A stretch of DNA of 10,842 bases, taken from positions 7,194-18,035 of the forward strand of contig DNSU01000009.1 of assembly GCA_003499585.1 (NCBI GenBank). Direction: 5' to 3'. Origin of the DNA: Cyanobacteria bacterium UBA9579. Its GTDB lineage: Bacteria > Cyanobacteriota > Vampirovibrionia > Gastranaerophilales > UBA9579. Position numbers and translations under genes: made by a program. Positions 5,373-10,842 of this stretch are shown here, one piece after another. Under the pieces are notes generated by a model. That model did not search any database. It was not told the DNA's origin and worked only from the letters and a program-made list of their open reading frames with translations. Position 1 is the stretch's first letter, and every line of letters begins with the position of its first letter.

Positions 5373-5675
5373 TTAAATTTTAGATTTTACTGAAGCTACT
5401 TTTTCTGACATAGAGCATTCTTTATCACGCCTGTCATCAATACGAATAGTAGTTTGAACTCTTGCAGCACCATTAGTAATTTGCGCTTCATGCATTTCTT
5501 TTAGTGCTTCAAAAATTTCATTCAGGTTTTTACCTTCTATCTCAGTCGACATGGCAGTAATTTTATGGCTTAAATCAGGATATTTGTCTAAAACTTTTTC
5601 AGACTTAGCAATATAATCGCTATAACTTGTTGATCCTGTACCAACAGGCACAACAGCAATCTCTGCAGTAATCAT
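5373..5675 (-). CDS. MTH1187/UPF0045 family thiamine-binding protein
   Basis: 100 residues, full length for this one-domain ferredoxin-like family (MTH1187, YkoF-related, PF01910). Diagnostic segments are the opening MITAEIAVVPVGTGS, then MSTEIEGKNLNEIFEALKEMHEA, NGAARVQTTIRIDDRRDK and a final MSEKVASVK. Family members form tetramers and several bind thiamine or its pyrimidine part, so a role as a cytosolic thiamine carrier or sensor is likely but not certain. Start ATG 5675 has AAGGAG (5682-5687) 6 bases ahead, one of the best sites in the window. It is convergent with the preceding gene with a single base between stops. I looked for a TPP riboswitch in its leader and found none, and no other thiamine gene is nearby. 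Confidence 0.92.
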   Translation of the reverse strand: MITAEIAVVPVGTGSTSYSDYIAKSEKVLDKYPDLSHKITAMSTEIEGKNLNEIFEALKEMHEAQITNGAARVQTTIRIDDRRDKECSMSEKVASVKSKI

Positions 5676-5845: not shown

Positions 5846-5856
5846 GGGAAATGAAT

Positions 5857-7562: not shown

Positions 7563-8663
7563 ATGCAAAATATCTGGGAAAAATATGCCAAAGTAATCGT
7601 TGAATACTCGGTTAACGTACAAAAAAATGATCTGGTAATAATACGTGGAGAAGCACAGGCACAACCTTTAATTCTGGCCATATACGAAGAAGTTATTAAA
7701 AAAGGAGCCCATCCGATAGCAAAAGCAACTCTAGATGGCATAAATGAAAGCTATTTCAGGCTTGCTTCAGATGAGCAGCTTGAGTTTATTGACCCATTTA
7801 CTAAGCTTGAATACAATAAAGTAGATAAAATTATATCTATAGGAGCGCCGTATAATGTAAAAAATATGGCCAAAACAAATCCTGCAAGATTGGCAAAAAG
7901 ATCAGCAGCAACAAAACCATTATCAAATAAACTCCTGCAAAGATCCGCAGAGGGCAATCTTAACTGGGTAATATGTGATTTCCCAACTAATGCTTTAGCC
8001 CAAGAAGCCAAAATGTCTCTTTATGATTATCAGGAATTTTTATTCACCGCTTGCTATCTACACCTTGATGATCCGGTAGCAAAATGGAGGGAAATTGGAA
8101 AAAGCCAAGAAAGACTAGTTGAATATATGAATAATGTCAAAAAAGTTCGTATAACAGGAGAGAAAACTGATTTAACCATATCAACAGAAGGAAGAACATG
8201 GGTAAACTGCAAGGGAAAATTTAACTTCCCGGATGGCGAAGTGTTTACTTCTCCTGTAGAAAATAGTGCTCAAGGTGAAATTTATTTTGATTTTCCTGCA
8301 ATTTATCGAGGAAATGAAGCCCACGGAATTCACCTAAAATTTGAAAACGGCAAAGTAGTTCATGCTACTGCTGAAAAAGGAGAAGAATTTTTCCTCAGCA
8401 TGATCAATCAGGATGAAGGCGCAAGATATCTGGGTGAATTGGCATTTGGAACCAATGATATGATACAGGAAATTACAGGCAATATCCTGTTTGATGAAAA
8501 AATAGGAGGATCAATACACTTGGCACTTGGAACCTCATATCCTCAAACAGGCGGTAAAAACCAGTCCGGGTTGCATTGGGATATCATAAAAAACATGAAA
8601 AACGGCGGCAAAATCTATGCTGATGATAAGTTAATATATGAGAACGGTAAATTCCTGATCTAG
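7563..8663 (+). CDS. M29-family metallo-aminopeptidase (AmpS/aminopeptidase T type)
   Basis: 366 residues from ATG 7563, with AAAGGAG (7551-7557) 5 bases ahead. The family removes N-terminal residues from peptides in the cytosol using two metal ions (Zn, Co or Mg). Expected ligands are all visible: Glu226 in FPDGEVFTSP, Glu292 in LGELAFGTN, His319 and Tyr326 in DEKIGGSIHLALGTSYP, and His338 with Asp340 in SGLHWD. The N-terminal half carries the family's dimer-forming domain, including IWEKYAKVIVEYSVNVQKND and the VVIRGE-like VIIRGEAQ. It is slightly shorter than AmpS (about 410), with the missing length spread before the first Glu ligand. It is a single gene, followed by a hairpin terminator at 8716. 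The precise substrate preference cannot be read from sequence. Confidence 0.95.
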   Translation: MQNIWEKYAKVIVEYSVNVQKNDLVIIRGEAQAQPLILAIYEEVIKKGAHPIAKATLDGINESYFRLASDEQLEFIDPFTKLEYNKVDKIISIGAPYNVKNMAKTNPARLAKRSAATKPLSNKLLQRSAEGNLNWVICDFPTNALAQEAKMSLYDYQEFLFTACYLHLDDPVAKWREIGKSQERLVEYMNNVKKVRITGEKTDLTISTEGRTWVNCKGKFNFPDGEVFTSPVENSAQGEIYFDFPAIYRGNEAHGIHLKFENGKVVHATAEKGEEFFLSMINQDEGARYLGELAFGTNDMIQEITGNILFDEKIGGSIHLALGTSYPQTGGKNQSGLHWDIIKNMKNGGKIYADDKLIYENGKFLI

Positions 8664-8715
8664 TGCTACTGCCATTTTTCATTTAGCACACACGAAATAA
8701 TCAATTATACGACTA

Positions 8716-8752
8716 AAAACACTGCCTTAATAACTCCCAAAGGCAGTGTTTT
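8716..8752 (+). terminator. Hairpin terminator after the M29 peptidase gene
   Basis: Perfect 13-bp stem AAAACACTGCCTT (8716-8728) with AAGGCAGTGTTTT (8740-8752), 11-base loop. The 3' arm ends in TTTT and the 5' arm starts in an A-run (8715-8719), so it can act in both directions. It lies 53 bases after the stop codon. Confidence 0.8.
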
Positions 8753-8777
8753 AAACATGTCAACCTAAATAGTTACA

Positions 8778-8824
8778 AGGGTGATTCCTGAGGGTGATAT
8801 GTGAATATCACACTCAATGGTGAT
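8778..8824. repeat. Repeated GGTGAT sites and imperfect hairpin upstream of the small membrane gene's promoter
   Basis: AGGGTGAT occurs at 8778-8785 and 8791-8798 (13-base period), and GGTGAT again at 8819-8824. The second copy is in the left arm of a hairpin, 8789-8800 with 8805-8816 (12 bp with one mismatch, GTGA loop). It lies just upstream of the -35 at 8833, a natural place for a DNA-binding regulator. Confidence 0.4.
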
Positions 8825-8832
8825 TAACTCTT

Positions 8833-8860
8833 TTGAAAAATATTATATATTGAGTATATA
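8833..8860 (+). promoter_or_regulatory. Promoter of the 48-residue membrane protein gene
   Basis: TTGAAA (8833-8838), 16 bases, TATATA (8855-8860). The -35 matches TTGACA at five of six positions. The predicted start near 8867 gives a leader of about 24 bases, enough for the GGAG at 8879-8882. Confidence 0.55.
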
Positions 8861-8880
8861 AGTTGGATATAAAACAGCGG
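8841..8880 (+). promoter_or_regulatory. Promoter-like leader element shared with the YvlD-type gene (copy 2)
   Basis: TATTATAT (8841-8848), AGTAT (8853-8857) and ATAAAACAGCGG (8869-8880) appear in the same order as at 5813-5845. The identical 12-mer ends in the ribosome site of a small membrane protein gene in both places. Confidence 0.45.
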
Positions 8881-8890
8881 AGACAAAACA

Positions 8891-9037
8891 ATGAGTAACA
8901 TATTAAATATAGTTTCAACAAAGATTAAAGAAAATGAAATCATTTTAGAATCAGGTCTTATATTAGCAGTAGAATCAAGCCTAGCAGTCATAGTTATTTC
9001 CAGTATGTTCAACATTTATTTAAGTATGATCAGCTAA
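8891..9037 (+). CDS. 48-residue single-helix membrane protein, unknown function
   Basis: ATG 8891 to TAA 9035-9037. GGAG at 8879-8882 is 8 bases before the start, and a plausible promoter lies at 8833-8860. The protein is MSNILNIVSTKIKENEIILE, then a hydrophobic stretch from about residue 18 to 46 (GLILAVESSLAVIVISSMF) ending MIS. Residues 1-17 look amphipathic and charged; the rest would make one membrane helix. I do not recognise a family. The size and layout fit small membrane regulators or type I toxin-like peptides, but no antitoxin can be shown. A C-rich transcript and terminator follow directly (9066-9190), and htrA lies beyond. An overlapping antisense frame (8824-9015) has no ribosome site and is not supported. 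Confidence 0.6.
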   Translation: MSNILNIVSTKIKENEIILESGLILAVESSLAVIVISSMFNIYLSMIS

Positions 9038-9065
9038 TCAATAATAATTTTAACAATACATACCA

Positions 9066-9190
9066 ACATACCTCCCTCCTCTCCCTCATATCCCCCTGCA
9101 CTATCCTCTTGCAAATCCTCCCTCCTCCCTATGCATCACTACTTTTTAGTGTGGTACATTCTCTCCTCAAATAAGAGGGGAGTTTTTTTT
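9066..9190 (+). ncRNA. Candidate C-rich regulatory RNA or 3' UTR with anti-Shine-Dalgarno motifs
   Basis: From 9066 to 9130 the plus strand has only two G and is dominated by C and T, in sharp contrast to the AT-rich surroundings. CCTCC, the complement of GGAGG, occurs five times (9071, 9075, 9117, 9121, 9124), within an exact 11-base direct repeat CCTCCCTCCTC at 9071-9081 and 9117-9127. A small hairpin (9137-9141 with 9147-9151) and then a strong intrinsic terminator (9161-9190) follow. Single-stranded C-rich motifs ending in a terminator are the layout of small RNAs that block ribosome sites. No separate promoter is clear, so it may be the 3' part of the small-gene mRNA starting near 8867. 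The 5' end is uncertain. Confidence 0.5.
9161..9190 (+). terminator. Intrinsic terminator with U8 tract
   Basis: CTCTCCTC (9161-9168) pairs with GAGGGGAG (9175-9182), 8 bp with one T-G wobble, loop AAATAA, followed at once by eight T (9183-9190). It is the strongest terminator in the window and is oriented for plus-strand transcription, which isolates htrA from the upstream unit. Confidence 0.9.
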
Positions 9191-9252
9191 GCTATTTCAA
9201 AATTATAATTATTTCATATAACTTTATTATCATTACCTATTTGTAGTATTAT

Positions 9253-9258
9253 TATAAT
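9253..9258 (+). promoter_or_regulatory. Likely -10 of the htrA promoter
   Basis: A perfect TATAAT 76 bases before the htrA ATG and 62 bases after the terminator U-tract. The -35 at 16-18 bases is not recognisable (around TCATTA). The leader would be about 70 bases. Another TATAAT at 9204-9209 is possible. Confidence 0.4.
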
Positions 9259-9334
9259 TAGGCATATAAAGTTGTTTTCTCCATATACGGCAGGAAATCT
9301 CGTATTTCAGTTAAGTTTTCAAAGAGGTAAATCT

Positions 9335-10507
9335 ATGAGGAAATACTTTAAAAATAATTTTAAATTTTACCTTACTATTCTTTTAAGTGGCATTATTGCA
9401 GGAATTATTCTGGCATTTGCCGATAATTTCAGCATTGATAAATTCAATGGAAAAGACTCTGTTATTAATAGAATTTCAGCATTTGCCGGTGATAATCAAA
9501 GAAAATTGACAGATGAAGAAAAACTTAATACCAAATTATATAAAGAATTAAGCCCTGCAGTAGTAAACATCACAACAACCACATTAAAATATGATGCATT
9601 CTTTGATATTGTGCCATCAAACGGATCCGGCTCAGGCGTAATAATTGATCCATCGGGTTATATTCTCACAAATAATCACGTAATAGAAAATGCTACTAAA
9701 CTGACTGTAACTCTTAATGACGAGATGGAATATAATGCCAAAATCATTGGAACTGATAAAAGTAATGATATTGCAGTTATAAAAATTGAACCTAAAACTA
9801 CCAATCTCAGTTATATTCCTATAGGAAATTCCAATAACCTTGAAGTGGGGCAGAAAGTTTTAGCCATAGGCAATCCTTTCGGACTTCAAAGCACACTAAC
9901 AACCGGAGTAATAAGTAGTATCGGAAGAACTCTAAGATCAGAGAACGGCAGAATAATTCAAAATATTATTCAAACTGACGCTGCAATAAATCCTGGCAAT
10001 TCAGGAGGGCCATTAATCGATACTCAAGGTCAATTAGTTGGTCTAAATACAGCAATATTCTCTCCAAGTAAAGGCAATATAGGAATAGGCTTTGCCATTC
10101 CTGCATCTACAATTACAACGGTTGTACCCGATCTAATCAAGCATGGCTATGTAATAAGACCTTATCTTGGCGTCACAGGAACACTACCTGTAAACCAACA
10201 TCTGGCAAGTGTTCTTGGCAATCCTGAAGCGACAGGAATACTGATTCAGGAAATTATCCCGGGAAGTCCAGCTGATAAAGCCAGTTTAAAAGGTGGAAAC
10301 CAACTTGTGAGAATGGGAAGATATAATATATTATTAGGTGGAGATATAATTACACTGGTTGATGGCAAAAAACTGACTAACAGTTCAATACTTGCAACTT
10401 ATATTGAATCCAAACGTCCAGGTGATAGGGTCAAACTAACGGTAATACGAGATAATAAACCTAAAGATATAACAGTTACCCTGGAAGAACCTCCCAAAAA
10501 ACGCTAA
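9335..10507 (+). CDS. htrA: Membrane-anchored HtrA/DegP-type serine protease with one PDZ domain
   Basis: 390 residues from ATG 9335, with AGAGGT (9323-9328) 6 bases ahead. The frame could open at TTG 9272, but the extra 21 residues precede the basic N-terminus (MRKYFKNN) and lack a ribosome site. A membrane helix at about residues 11-29 anchors or exports the enzyme. The trypsin-like domain (about 70-265) has the full triad: His115 in TNNHVIEN, Asp145 in SNDIAVIK, Ser223 in PGNSGGPL. The C-terminal PDZ (about 270-384) includes the insert GGNQLVRMGRYNILLGGDII before the DG turn, a form common in cyanobacterial and Chloroflexi HtrAs. The role is degradation and quality control of misfolded envelope proteins. 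It is followed 15 bases later by a response regulator gene on the same strand, suggesting an operon linking protease level to a signalling system. Confidence 0.96.
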   Translation: MRKYFKNNFKFYLTILLSGIIAGIILAFADNFSIDKFNGKDSVINRISAFAGDNQRKLTDEEKLNTKLYKELSPAVVNITTTTLKYDAFFDIVPSNGSGSGVIIDPSGYILTNNHVIENATKLTVTLNDEMEYNAKIIGTDKSNDIAVIKIEPKTTNLSYIPIGNSNNLEVGQKVLAIGNPFGLQSTLTTGVISSIGRTLRSENGRIIQNIIQTDAAINPGNSGGPLIDTQGQLVGLNTAIFSPSKGNIGIGFAIPASTITTVVPDLIKHGYVIRPYLGVTGTLPVNQHLASVLGNPEATGILIQEIIPGSPADKASLKGGNQLVRMGRYNILLGGDIITLVDGKKLTNSSILATYIESKRPGDRVKLTVIRDNKPKDITVTLEEPPKKR

Positions 10508-10522
10508 TAGGAGTGATCATAA

Positions 10523-10842
10523 ATGAGTAAAATTTTAGTTATAGATGATGATATGGCAATCCTTGAACTTCTCCAGATTAACCTTGAGCTTTTAGGGCAT
10601 GACATCTTAACAAGCCCGGATGGCATTAAAGGATTTGCATTAGCTCAGCAGGAAATTCCTGATTTGATAGTTCTTGATGTTATGATGCCTGAAGTTGATG
10701 GATATACTGTAGCTCAACGCATAAGACATAATGAAGCGACTAAGGATATTCCTATCCTGATGCTAACAGCATTAGGAATGCTAAAAGATAAAGTTCACGG
10801 ATTTGACTCAGGAGTAGATGATTATCTGATAAAACCTTTTGA
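10523..10842 (+). CDS. Response regulator, receiver domain (3' end outside window)
   Basis: The first 106 residues are present. AGGAG (10509-10513) lies 9 bases before ATG 10523. It is a complete-looking CheY-type receiver: acidic pocket Asp8/Asp9/Asp10 in ILVIDDDM, phospho-acceptor Asp52 in [12 protein letters not shown], switch Thr82 in MLTALG, and Lys104 in IKPF at the window edge. The output domain is not visible. The opening [10 protein letters not shown] and the length to KPF suit OmpR/PhoB regulators, but a stand-alone receiver is also possible. It shares an operon with htrA, with only 15 bases between. Confidence 0.94.

Follow-up and report, generated by a model that had tools for sequence, protein, structure and literature searches.

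Within the 10,842 nucleotides of Cyanobacteria bacterium UBA9579 analyzed here (the window), the 3′ untranslated region of a short mRNA for a 48-aa protein is probably a base-pairing regulator, acting within the whole mRNA or after being cut from it. This reading is drawn from the anti-Shine-Dalgarno motif CCUCCUCCC, its conservation in one relative (genome G016, locus L065), its predicted accessibility, the presence of a terminator in both genomes and the use of Shine-Dalgarno sites in the relative. The features of the locus are as follows.

8716-8752, + strand: terminator-like inverted repeat 3′ of the M29 peptidase gene (13-nt arms, 100% complementary, 11-nt loop)
8789-8816: near-perfect palindrome (12-nt arms, 92%) just 5′ of the promoter-like site
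8824-8851, + strand: sigma-70-like promoter site, TTAACT, 16, TATATT (9/12 matches)
8891-9037, + strand: 48-aa hydrophobic small ORF with a CGGAG site
9063-9130, + strand: C-rich, G-poor, largely single-stranded tract (from base counts and predicted pairing)
9097-9160, + strand: conserved core, identical to L065 at 57/64 positions (pairwise alignment) or 54/64 (MAFFT)
9121-9129, + strand: anti-Shine-Dalgarno motif CCUCCUCCC, invariant and predicted to be unpaired in both genomes
9131-9159, + strand: hairpin B, AUG.CAUCAC..GUGUGGU.CAU, inner pairs predicted at 0.81-0.84 in the window
9161-9190, + strand: intrinsic terminator with U8 (terminator scan), its GAGGGG arm common to L065
9239-9275, + strand: conserved element of putative promoter function, TATAAT at 9253, 32/37 positions identical

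Organization of the locus

The terminator-like repeat 8716-8752 is the upstream limit of the unit and the U8 terminator its downstream limit. The repeat was missed by the consensus terminator scan, in which the loop limit is 8. The palindrome 8789-8816 (28 bases) is possibly an operator of the small-ORF unit. Three copies of GGTGAT, at 8780, 8793 and 8819, lie near the palindrome (window 8776-8825), just 5′ of the promoter-like site. Promoter-like sites are about equally frequent in the region 8000-10842 and in its shuffles (15 versus 12.8). The 48-aa protein has one other relative in the database, 98% identical, and matches none of the Pfam, NCBIfam or PHROG families at E ≤ 1. The initial annotation had assigned the RNA a terminator of its own, and this is confirmed, with 8 pairs at 9161-9182 followed by U8 at 9183-9190. 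The promoter-like element 9239-9275 precedes htrA and a response regulator. The M29 gene has its best matches in Candidatus Gastranaerophilales and Melainabacteria genomes, with full-length identity reaching 76%; a fragment of 70 residues in L056 is 86% identical.

Composition of the C-rich tract

The tract had been picked out as a C-rich, G-poor stretch of 65 bases, and the count bears this out: positions 9066-9130 hold C34 A10 T19 G2, in a window with a G+C content of 33.3%. The excess of C over G per 60 bases peaks here at 31, against a mean of 1.13 (sd 5.09) on the + strand, and the maximum on the − strand of the window is only 17. The aligned site in G016 reaches 26, the highest value among 20 contig stretches (305,167 bases, both strands), where the next value is 22. 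All five CCTCC motifs are present, starting at 9071, 9075, 9117, 9121 and 9124; five or more appear in 95/20,000 composition shuffles of the tract. The exact 11-base repeat CCTCCCTCCTC is real as well (9071-9081 and 9117-9127). It was read from the letters and was not reported by the repeat scan. Its first nine bases, CCTCCCTCC, found at 9071 and 9117, are expected 0.01 times per window. The motif CCTCCTCCC arises in 861/20,000 composition shuffles of the window tract and in 329/20,000 of the L065 tract; its identical placement in both genomes is a stronger point than this shuffle frequency.

Conservation in one relative

A DNA search with 8664-9271 gave matches at E ≤ 0.01 in 38 of 97 genomes of the order. 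G016 alone stands out, with E 2.8e-31 and 73% identity to window 9004-9271; the next-best genome (E 3.6e-6) matches in the spacer 3′ of the terminator. At L065 the element sits between the same neighbors, the 3′ end of the small ORF and the response regulator. The L065 contig starts inside the small ORF, of which the last 11 codons and the stop are in frame, with 6/11 residues identical. A protein search with the small ORF found none in G016, which the contig break inside the ORF may explain. The downstream response regulator is identical at 91/106 residues. Between it and the promoter-like element, htrA is present at L065 (1-460) as a remnant of its start.

Pairwise identity between the window and L065 is 28/34 at the small-ORF end, 12/25 after its stop and 25/34 in the 5′ half of the tract. 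It is 20/30 in the terminator, 31/48 after the terminator, 32/37 in the promoter-like element and 36/59 in the leader. The core is conserved above several references, p being given by Fisher test for the pairwise alignment and then for MAFFT. Fourfold-degenerate sites of the regulator (20/35 identical) give p 0.0007 or 0.004, the remaining aligned non-coding positions taken together (156/233) give 0.0003 or 0.008, and third codon positions where the residue is unchanged (60/91) give 0.001 or 0.016. With a reference of 79/132 positions, from which the promoter-like element, the terminator and the 5′ half of the tract are excluded, p is 2.6e-5. The core bounds were set after the alignment had been seen, so that these p values are somewhat flattering. 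The MAFFT alignment weakens the conservation figures and leaves their direction unchanged.

The longest unbroken run, CCTCCTCCCTATGCATCACTAC, spans 22 bases and includes CCTCCTCCC; of 20,000 simulated alignments (270 columns, 60% identity), 27 contained a run that long. On both strands taken together, the window and the 305,167 bases of G016 each contain CCTCCTCCC a single time, at corresponding sites of the alignment. The conservation evidence consists of two sequences, the window and L065, and the core hairpin shows no covariation between them. Of the features singled out by the initial annotation, the CCTCC motifs are conserved in part: two of the five are kept in L065, both inside CCTCCTCCC, and three are not, while CTCC occurs six times in each sequence. 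Of the 11-base repeat neither copy is conserved in L065. The terminator of L065 lies at 152-170 and has the same GAGGGG arm as that of the window. No conserved promoter was found after the small-ORF stop (12/25 identical), suggesting that the element is a 3′ untranslated region rather than a separate gene.

A coding role for the core was also considered and rejected. The window ORFs of 21 and 25 aa have no L065 counterpart of at least 20 aa, and no start-codon ORF of at least 20 aa covers the core likewise in both sequences. On the + strand each sequence has two open frames out of three, and ILLQ and PPPYASLL are common to both; these peptides are shared because the DNA is nearly identical, and 1-base indels flank them. 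On the minus strand one frame is open in L065 and contains stops in the window.

Predicted folding and other roles of the element

CCUCCUCCC is predicted to be unpaired in both RNAs, with a mean probability of 1.0. The two RNAs favor different folds around it. In the window, hairpin B together with the terminator is favored (−21.7 kcal/mol, versus −17.4 kcal/mol with fold A enforced); UGCA at 9097-9100 pairs with UGCA at 9110-9113, and fold A has a probability of 0.0. L065 favors fold A (−17.5 kcal/mol, probability up to 0.98; −15.2 kcal/mol with fold B enforced), in which the 5′ arm of hairpin B pairs with the upstream UGCA and a UGCAUA/UAUGCA stem closes a 23-base C-rich loop. Both folds use the invariant AUGCAU, and a switch between them, as a matter of prediction only, is conceivable. 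The element folds more stably than its shuffles, with z between −2.2 and −3.2 for four pieces. An alternative pairing of the terminator arm GAGGGGAG with the tract, which had been proposed from the letters, does exist in the window, but it is minor, its probability being about 0.16 where the terminator has about 0.8; for L065 nothing of the kind rises above the 0.02 reporting limit.

The hairpin and tract could instead act in cis, protecting or regulating the small-ORF mRNA, for instance through base pairing to the GGAG site of that mRNA. The predicted pairing of the tract with the start region of the small ORF is −13.4 kcal/mol, and in the predicted fold of 8855-9190, inspected by eye, GGAUAU and GGAG near the start pair with AUAUCC and CUCC in the tract. 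However, L065 lacks the AUAUCC side, shuffled sequences fold as stably as the full-length 8855-9190 (z −0.29), and conservation is highest in the 3′ core rather than in the pairing part. We regard this role as unlikely, though it is the best of the alternatives. The chance is smaller still, and quite low, that 9131-9159 is a conserved DNA site, an operator or protein-binding palindrome that happens to have C-rich sequence beside it. In favor of such a site, the hairpin forms an imperfect palindrome that hardly varies and lies about 80 bases 5′ of the conserved promoter-like element. Against it, the conserved run continues beyond the palindrome into the asymmetric CCTCCTCCC and TATCCTCTT, and both genomes have a U-tract terminator after the palindrome.

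Rut sites for Rho contain more C than G and are mostly unstructured. More than 60 mostly unstructured bases with C above G fit this description, and the tract could be a rut-like site for Rho-dependent termination ahead of the intrinsic terminator. Rut sites are not expected to stay conserved letter by letter, whereas 22 bases are invariant here. In 4/4 related genomes, whose completeness is unstated, the rho model reached at best 63.1 bits versus a cut-off of 509.45, which was passed in 8/14 controls. Such a rut-like role is thus highly improbable.

Distribution among related genomes

Beyond the window, the element was found in one genome, G016. Being restricted to G016 among the genomes searched, the RNA is either young or often lost. 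A covariance model (R1) built from the window and L065, of the kind that the initial annotation had proposed for related genomes, recovered G016 but no other convincing match. Run on genome sets drawn from larger groups and partly overlapping, it gave matches in 38 of 383 genomes of the order at E ≤ 0.1, about chance level, and in 6 of 289 of the class at E ≤ 0.005 (G016, L086, L150, L151, L090 and L092). Ten of the 37 order matches besides G016 were read by eye, some of them on the stored and not the matched strand. The sites in L086, L150 and L151 were rejected as homologues for overlapping open frames (in L086 the end of one); L090 and L092 were judged by eye only.

Whether the tract is lost where the flanking genes stay has a mixed answer. 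The core is kept in G016, and the tract was not found in G021, G003 or G007. G021, the one other genome analyzed from the family of G016, keeps the regulator; small ORF and htrA were not found in the 7.5 kb around it, and a DNA search of this genome for the tract gave no match. In G003 and G007 htrA and the regulator are kept, and inspection by eye of 0.8 kb around and upstream of the htrA start showed no such tract. The small-ORF protein gave weak matches in G007 (E 0.0056) and G021 (E 0.27) and none in G003. Among 56 M29 peptidase loci, htrA and the regulator are found at L007 (upstream of M29) and an aminotransferase at L002; none showed the small ORF in tblastn over 60 bits, a level at which a diverged copy would be hidden.

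Five C-rich stretches in L026, L027 and L052 were set aside, as by eye they look unrelated to the tract. Those at L026 5004-5078 and at L027 2663-2760 and 7312-7374 are C-rich simple sequence made of CCATTCACC and TTTACC units. The exact 11-mer occurs in 6/192 genomes of the order versus 8/192 for the reversed control pattern. Judged by eye, five of its six sites look coding; the sixth, in L061, comes after a stop codon, forms part of a stem that includes GAGGGAGAGGG, and apart from this differs from the element. Plasmids gave no match to 8800-9260, phages none to 8880-9271 or to htrA, and no viral contig carried the 19-base core pattern. That the tract is a functionless low-complexity stretch, retained by slow local divergence, is hardly credible: C-rich simple sequence is indeed known in other relatives (L026, L027), but the other non-coding positions are identical at 156/233 and the core at 57/64 or 54/64.

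Pairing with ribosome-binding sites

GGAG-type ribosome sites, which the initial annotation had read in the genes of the window, are used in G016 as well. The set comprised 201 ORFs of at least 150 aa from 305 kb, with the first ATG taken as start; GGAG lies at −18..−4 in 45/201 of them, versus 6/201 in each of two controls, and GGAG, GAGG and AGGA pooled peak 11-12 bases 5′ of the start. A conserved and accessible motif complementary to the ribosome-binding sites of the lineage, as found here in two sequences, is consistent with the anti-Shine-Dalgarno class in its loose sense.

The mean predicted pairing with G016 start regions is about −12 kcal/mol. The advantage of start over internal regions of the 201 ORFs is 0.98 kcal/mol for the L065 RNA and 1.13 kcal/mol for the window tract, versus 1.45 and 1.21 kcal/mol for shuffled RNA. 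Target prediction by pairing, as suggested from the motifs, therefore did not succeed: the preference for start regions is no larger than that of composition-shuffled RNA, and selectivity beyond composition was not found. Pairing with many targets, as the initial annotation had proposed, is possible. From the complementarity to GGAG sites we infer an anti-Shine-Dalgarno regulator for which targets are not nameable. Among 11 genes of the window, the strongest predicted pairings are with the thiamine-binding-protein gene at 5675 (− strand, −20.4 kcal/mol) and, second, with the start of a 120-aa membrane-protein gene at 5851 (+ strand, −19.3 kcal/mol).

In the proposed mechanism, a short monocistronic mRNA would encode the 48-aa hydrophobic protein, and its 3′ end would serve as the base-pairing regulator. 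The C-rich stretch with CCUCCUCCC would stay single-stranded beside the hairpin and the intrinsic terminator, and would pair with GGAG-type ribosome-binding sites of other mRNAs, so that their translation would be lowered. Either the intact mRNA or an sRNA cut out of it may be the active form. We infer that this RNA is transcribed, processed and active on targets. Counting against the mechanism, no Hfq match turned up in 6/6 genomes (G016, G021, G015, G006, G003 and G007), whose completeness is unstated; its model found 5 of 14 control genomes, Synechococcus elongatus not among them. The interpretation given in the initial annotation is partly supported, in that an anti-Shine-Dalgarno RNA, rich in C and ending in a terminator of its own, is kept in a relative at a locus where htrA is a remnant.

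Comparison with known RNA families

The RNA had been likened to the C-rich-loop sRNAs of Firmicutes, but the closest parallels that we found are proteobacterial. According to work on NfeR1, αr14 sRNAs have CCUCCUCCC as an ultraconserved anti-Shine-Dalgarno motif, present in three redundant hairpin copies, and silencing of ntrB through this motif was demonstrated by reporters (PMC10746234). SmelA075 and SmelA099 are reported to carry the motif in three and four hairpin loops (PMC3927594). As in cuckoo and αr14 RNAs, so far as these accounts describe them, the identical CCUCCUCCC lies in unpaired RNA, here as one exact copy per genome in two genomes. Unlike these RNAs of Alphaproteobacteria, described with three or four motif loops, the present element has a single copy, which lies either in a linear stretch or within one large loop, and belongs to the cyanobacterial phylum. 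A series of hairpins carrying CCUCCUCCC is absent from the predicted folds of the window and L065. The Rfam ar14 model (RF02344) scores 9.4 bits in L065 versus a gathering threshold of 58.8, and window 9030-9200 is not among its matches at E ≤ 10. CcsR1-4 are presumably cuckoo-type RNAs. They are sRNAs from the 3′ untranslated region of the ccaF1 mRNA of Rhodobacter, which encodes a small protein (PMC8625941). The element resembles them, as described in that source, in being RNA from the 3′ untranslated region of a small-protein mRNA; the difference is that four RNAs and a DUF1127 protein are described there, and one RNA and a 48-aa protein of no family are found here.

The best Rfam match of both sequences is anti-hemB (RF02837), with E of 0.00098 and 0.00057 in searches of 161-171 bases. 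The scores, 23.4 and 24.1 bits, are under the gathering threshold of 49.5, and the whole-window Rfam scan did not give this match. In size-matched controls an unrelated C-rich stretch had 0 matches and another terminator region 10, the best with E 0.021, so that an Rfam E near 0.001 is unusual and not decisive. Like anti-hemB, the element has CUCCUCCCU, a hairpin and a U-rich terminator in the same order; unlike it, the first hairpin of anti-hemB is absent from both alignments. Anti-hemB (RF02837) and the toxic/double-hairpin sRNAs (RF02278) are described from Burkholderia (PMC5688073). RF02278 matched L065 only, with 17.4 bits versus a gathering threshold of 50.

Yfr1 of cyanobacteria is described with a single-stranded CU-rich motif before its terminator (PMC2190773, PMC6778093). 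The element shares with this RNA of the sister group, as portrayed in those papers, an unpaired CU-rich motif followed by a terminator. Unlike in Yfr1, where ACUCCUCACAC stays unpaired with a hairpin on either side, ACUCCUCACAC is absent, the best sites having 3 (window) and 2 (L065) mismatches. The Yfr1 model (RF01116) is not listed for the window or L065 and gave no match in 6/6 related genomes at E ≤ 1, while matching in 5/14 control genomes, 1 of them over the cut-off. The anatomy of the element recalls cuckoo, anti-hemB and Yfr1, but in these tests it belonged to none of the three families. It appears to be a separate origin of a solution found mostly in other bacteria.

A more specific reading can be put forward tentatively. 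The transcript may have a dual function, as mRNA of the 48-aa protein and as a 3′ CCUCCUCCC regulator of an origin independent of the proteobacterial cuckoo and cyanobacterial Yfr1 RNAs, with the upstream or downstream pairing of AUGCAU perhaps tuning access to the motif. This would be set in a lineage with no detected Rho (4 genomes) or Hfq (6 genomes).

Biological meaning

Regulatory sRNAs seem to be little described for Melainabacteria/Gastranaerophilales, a weak statement that comes from limited literature sampling. The core 9097-9160 is a small test object for specificity of an RNA whose main motif matches ribosome sites generally. A conserved anti-Shine-Dalgarno RNA in a non-photosynthetic cyanobacterial relative, if true, would suggest that the CCUCCUCCC solution arose more than once.
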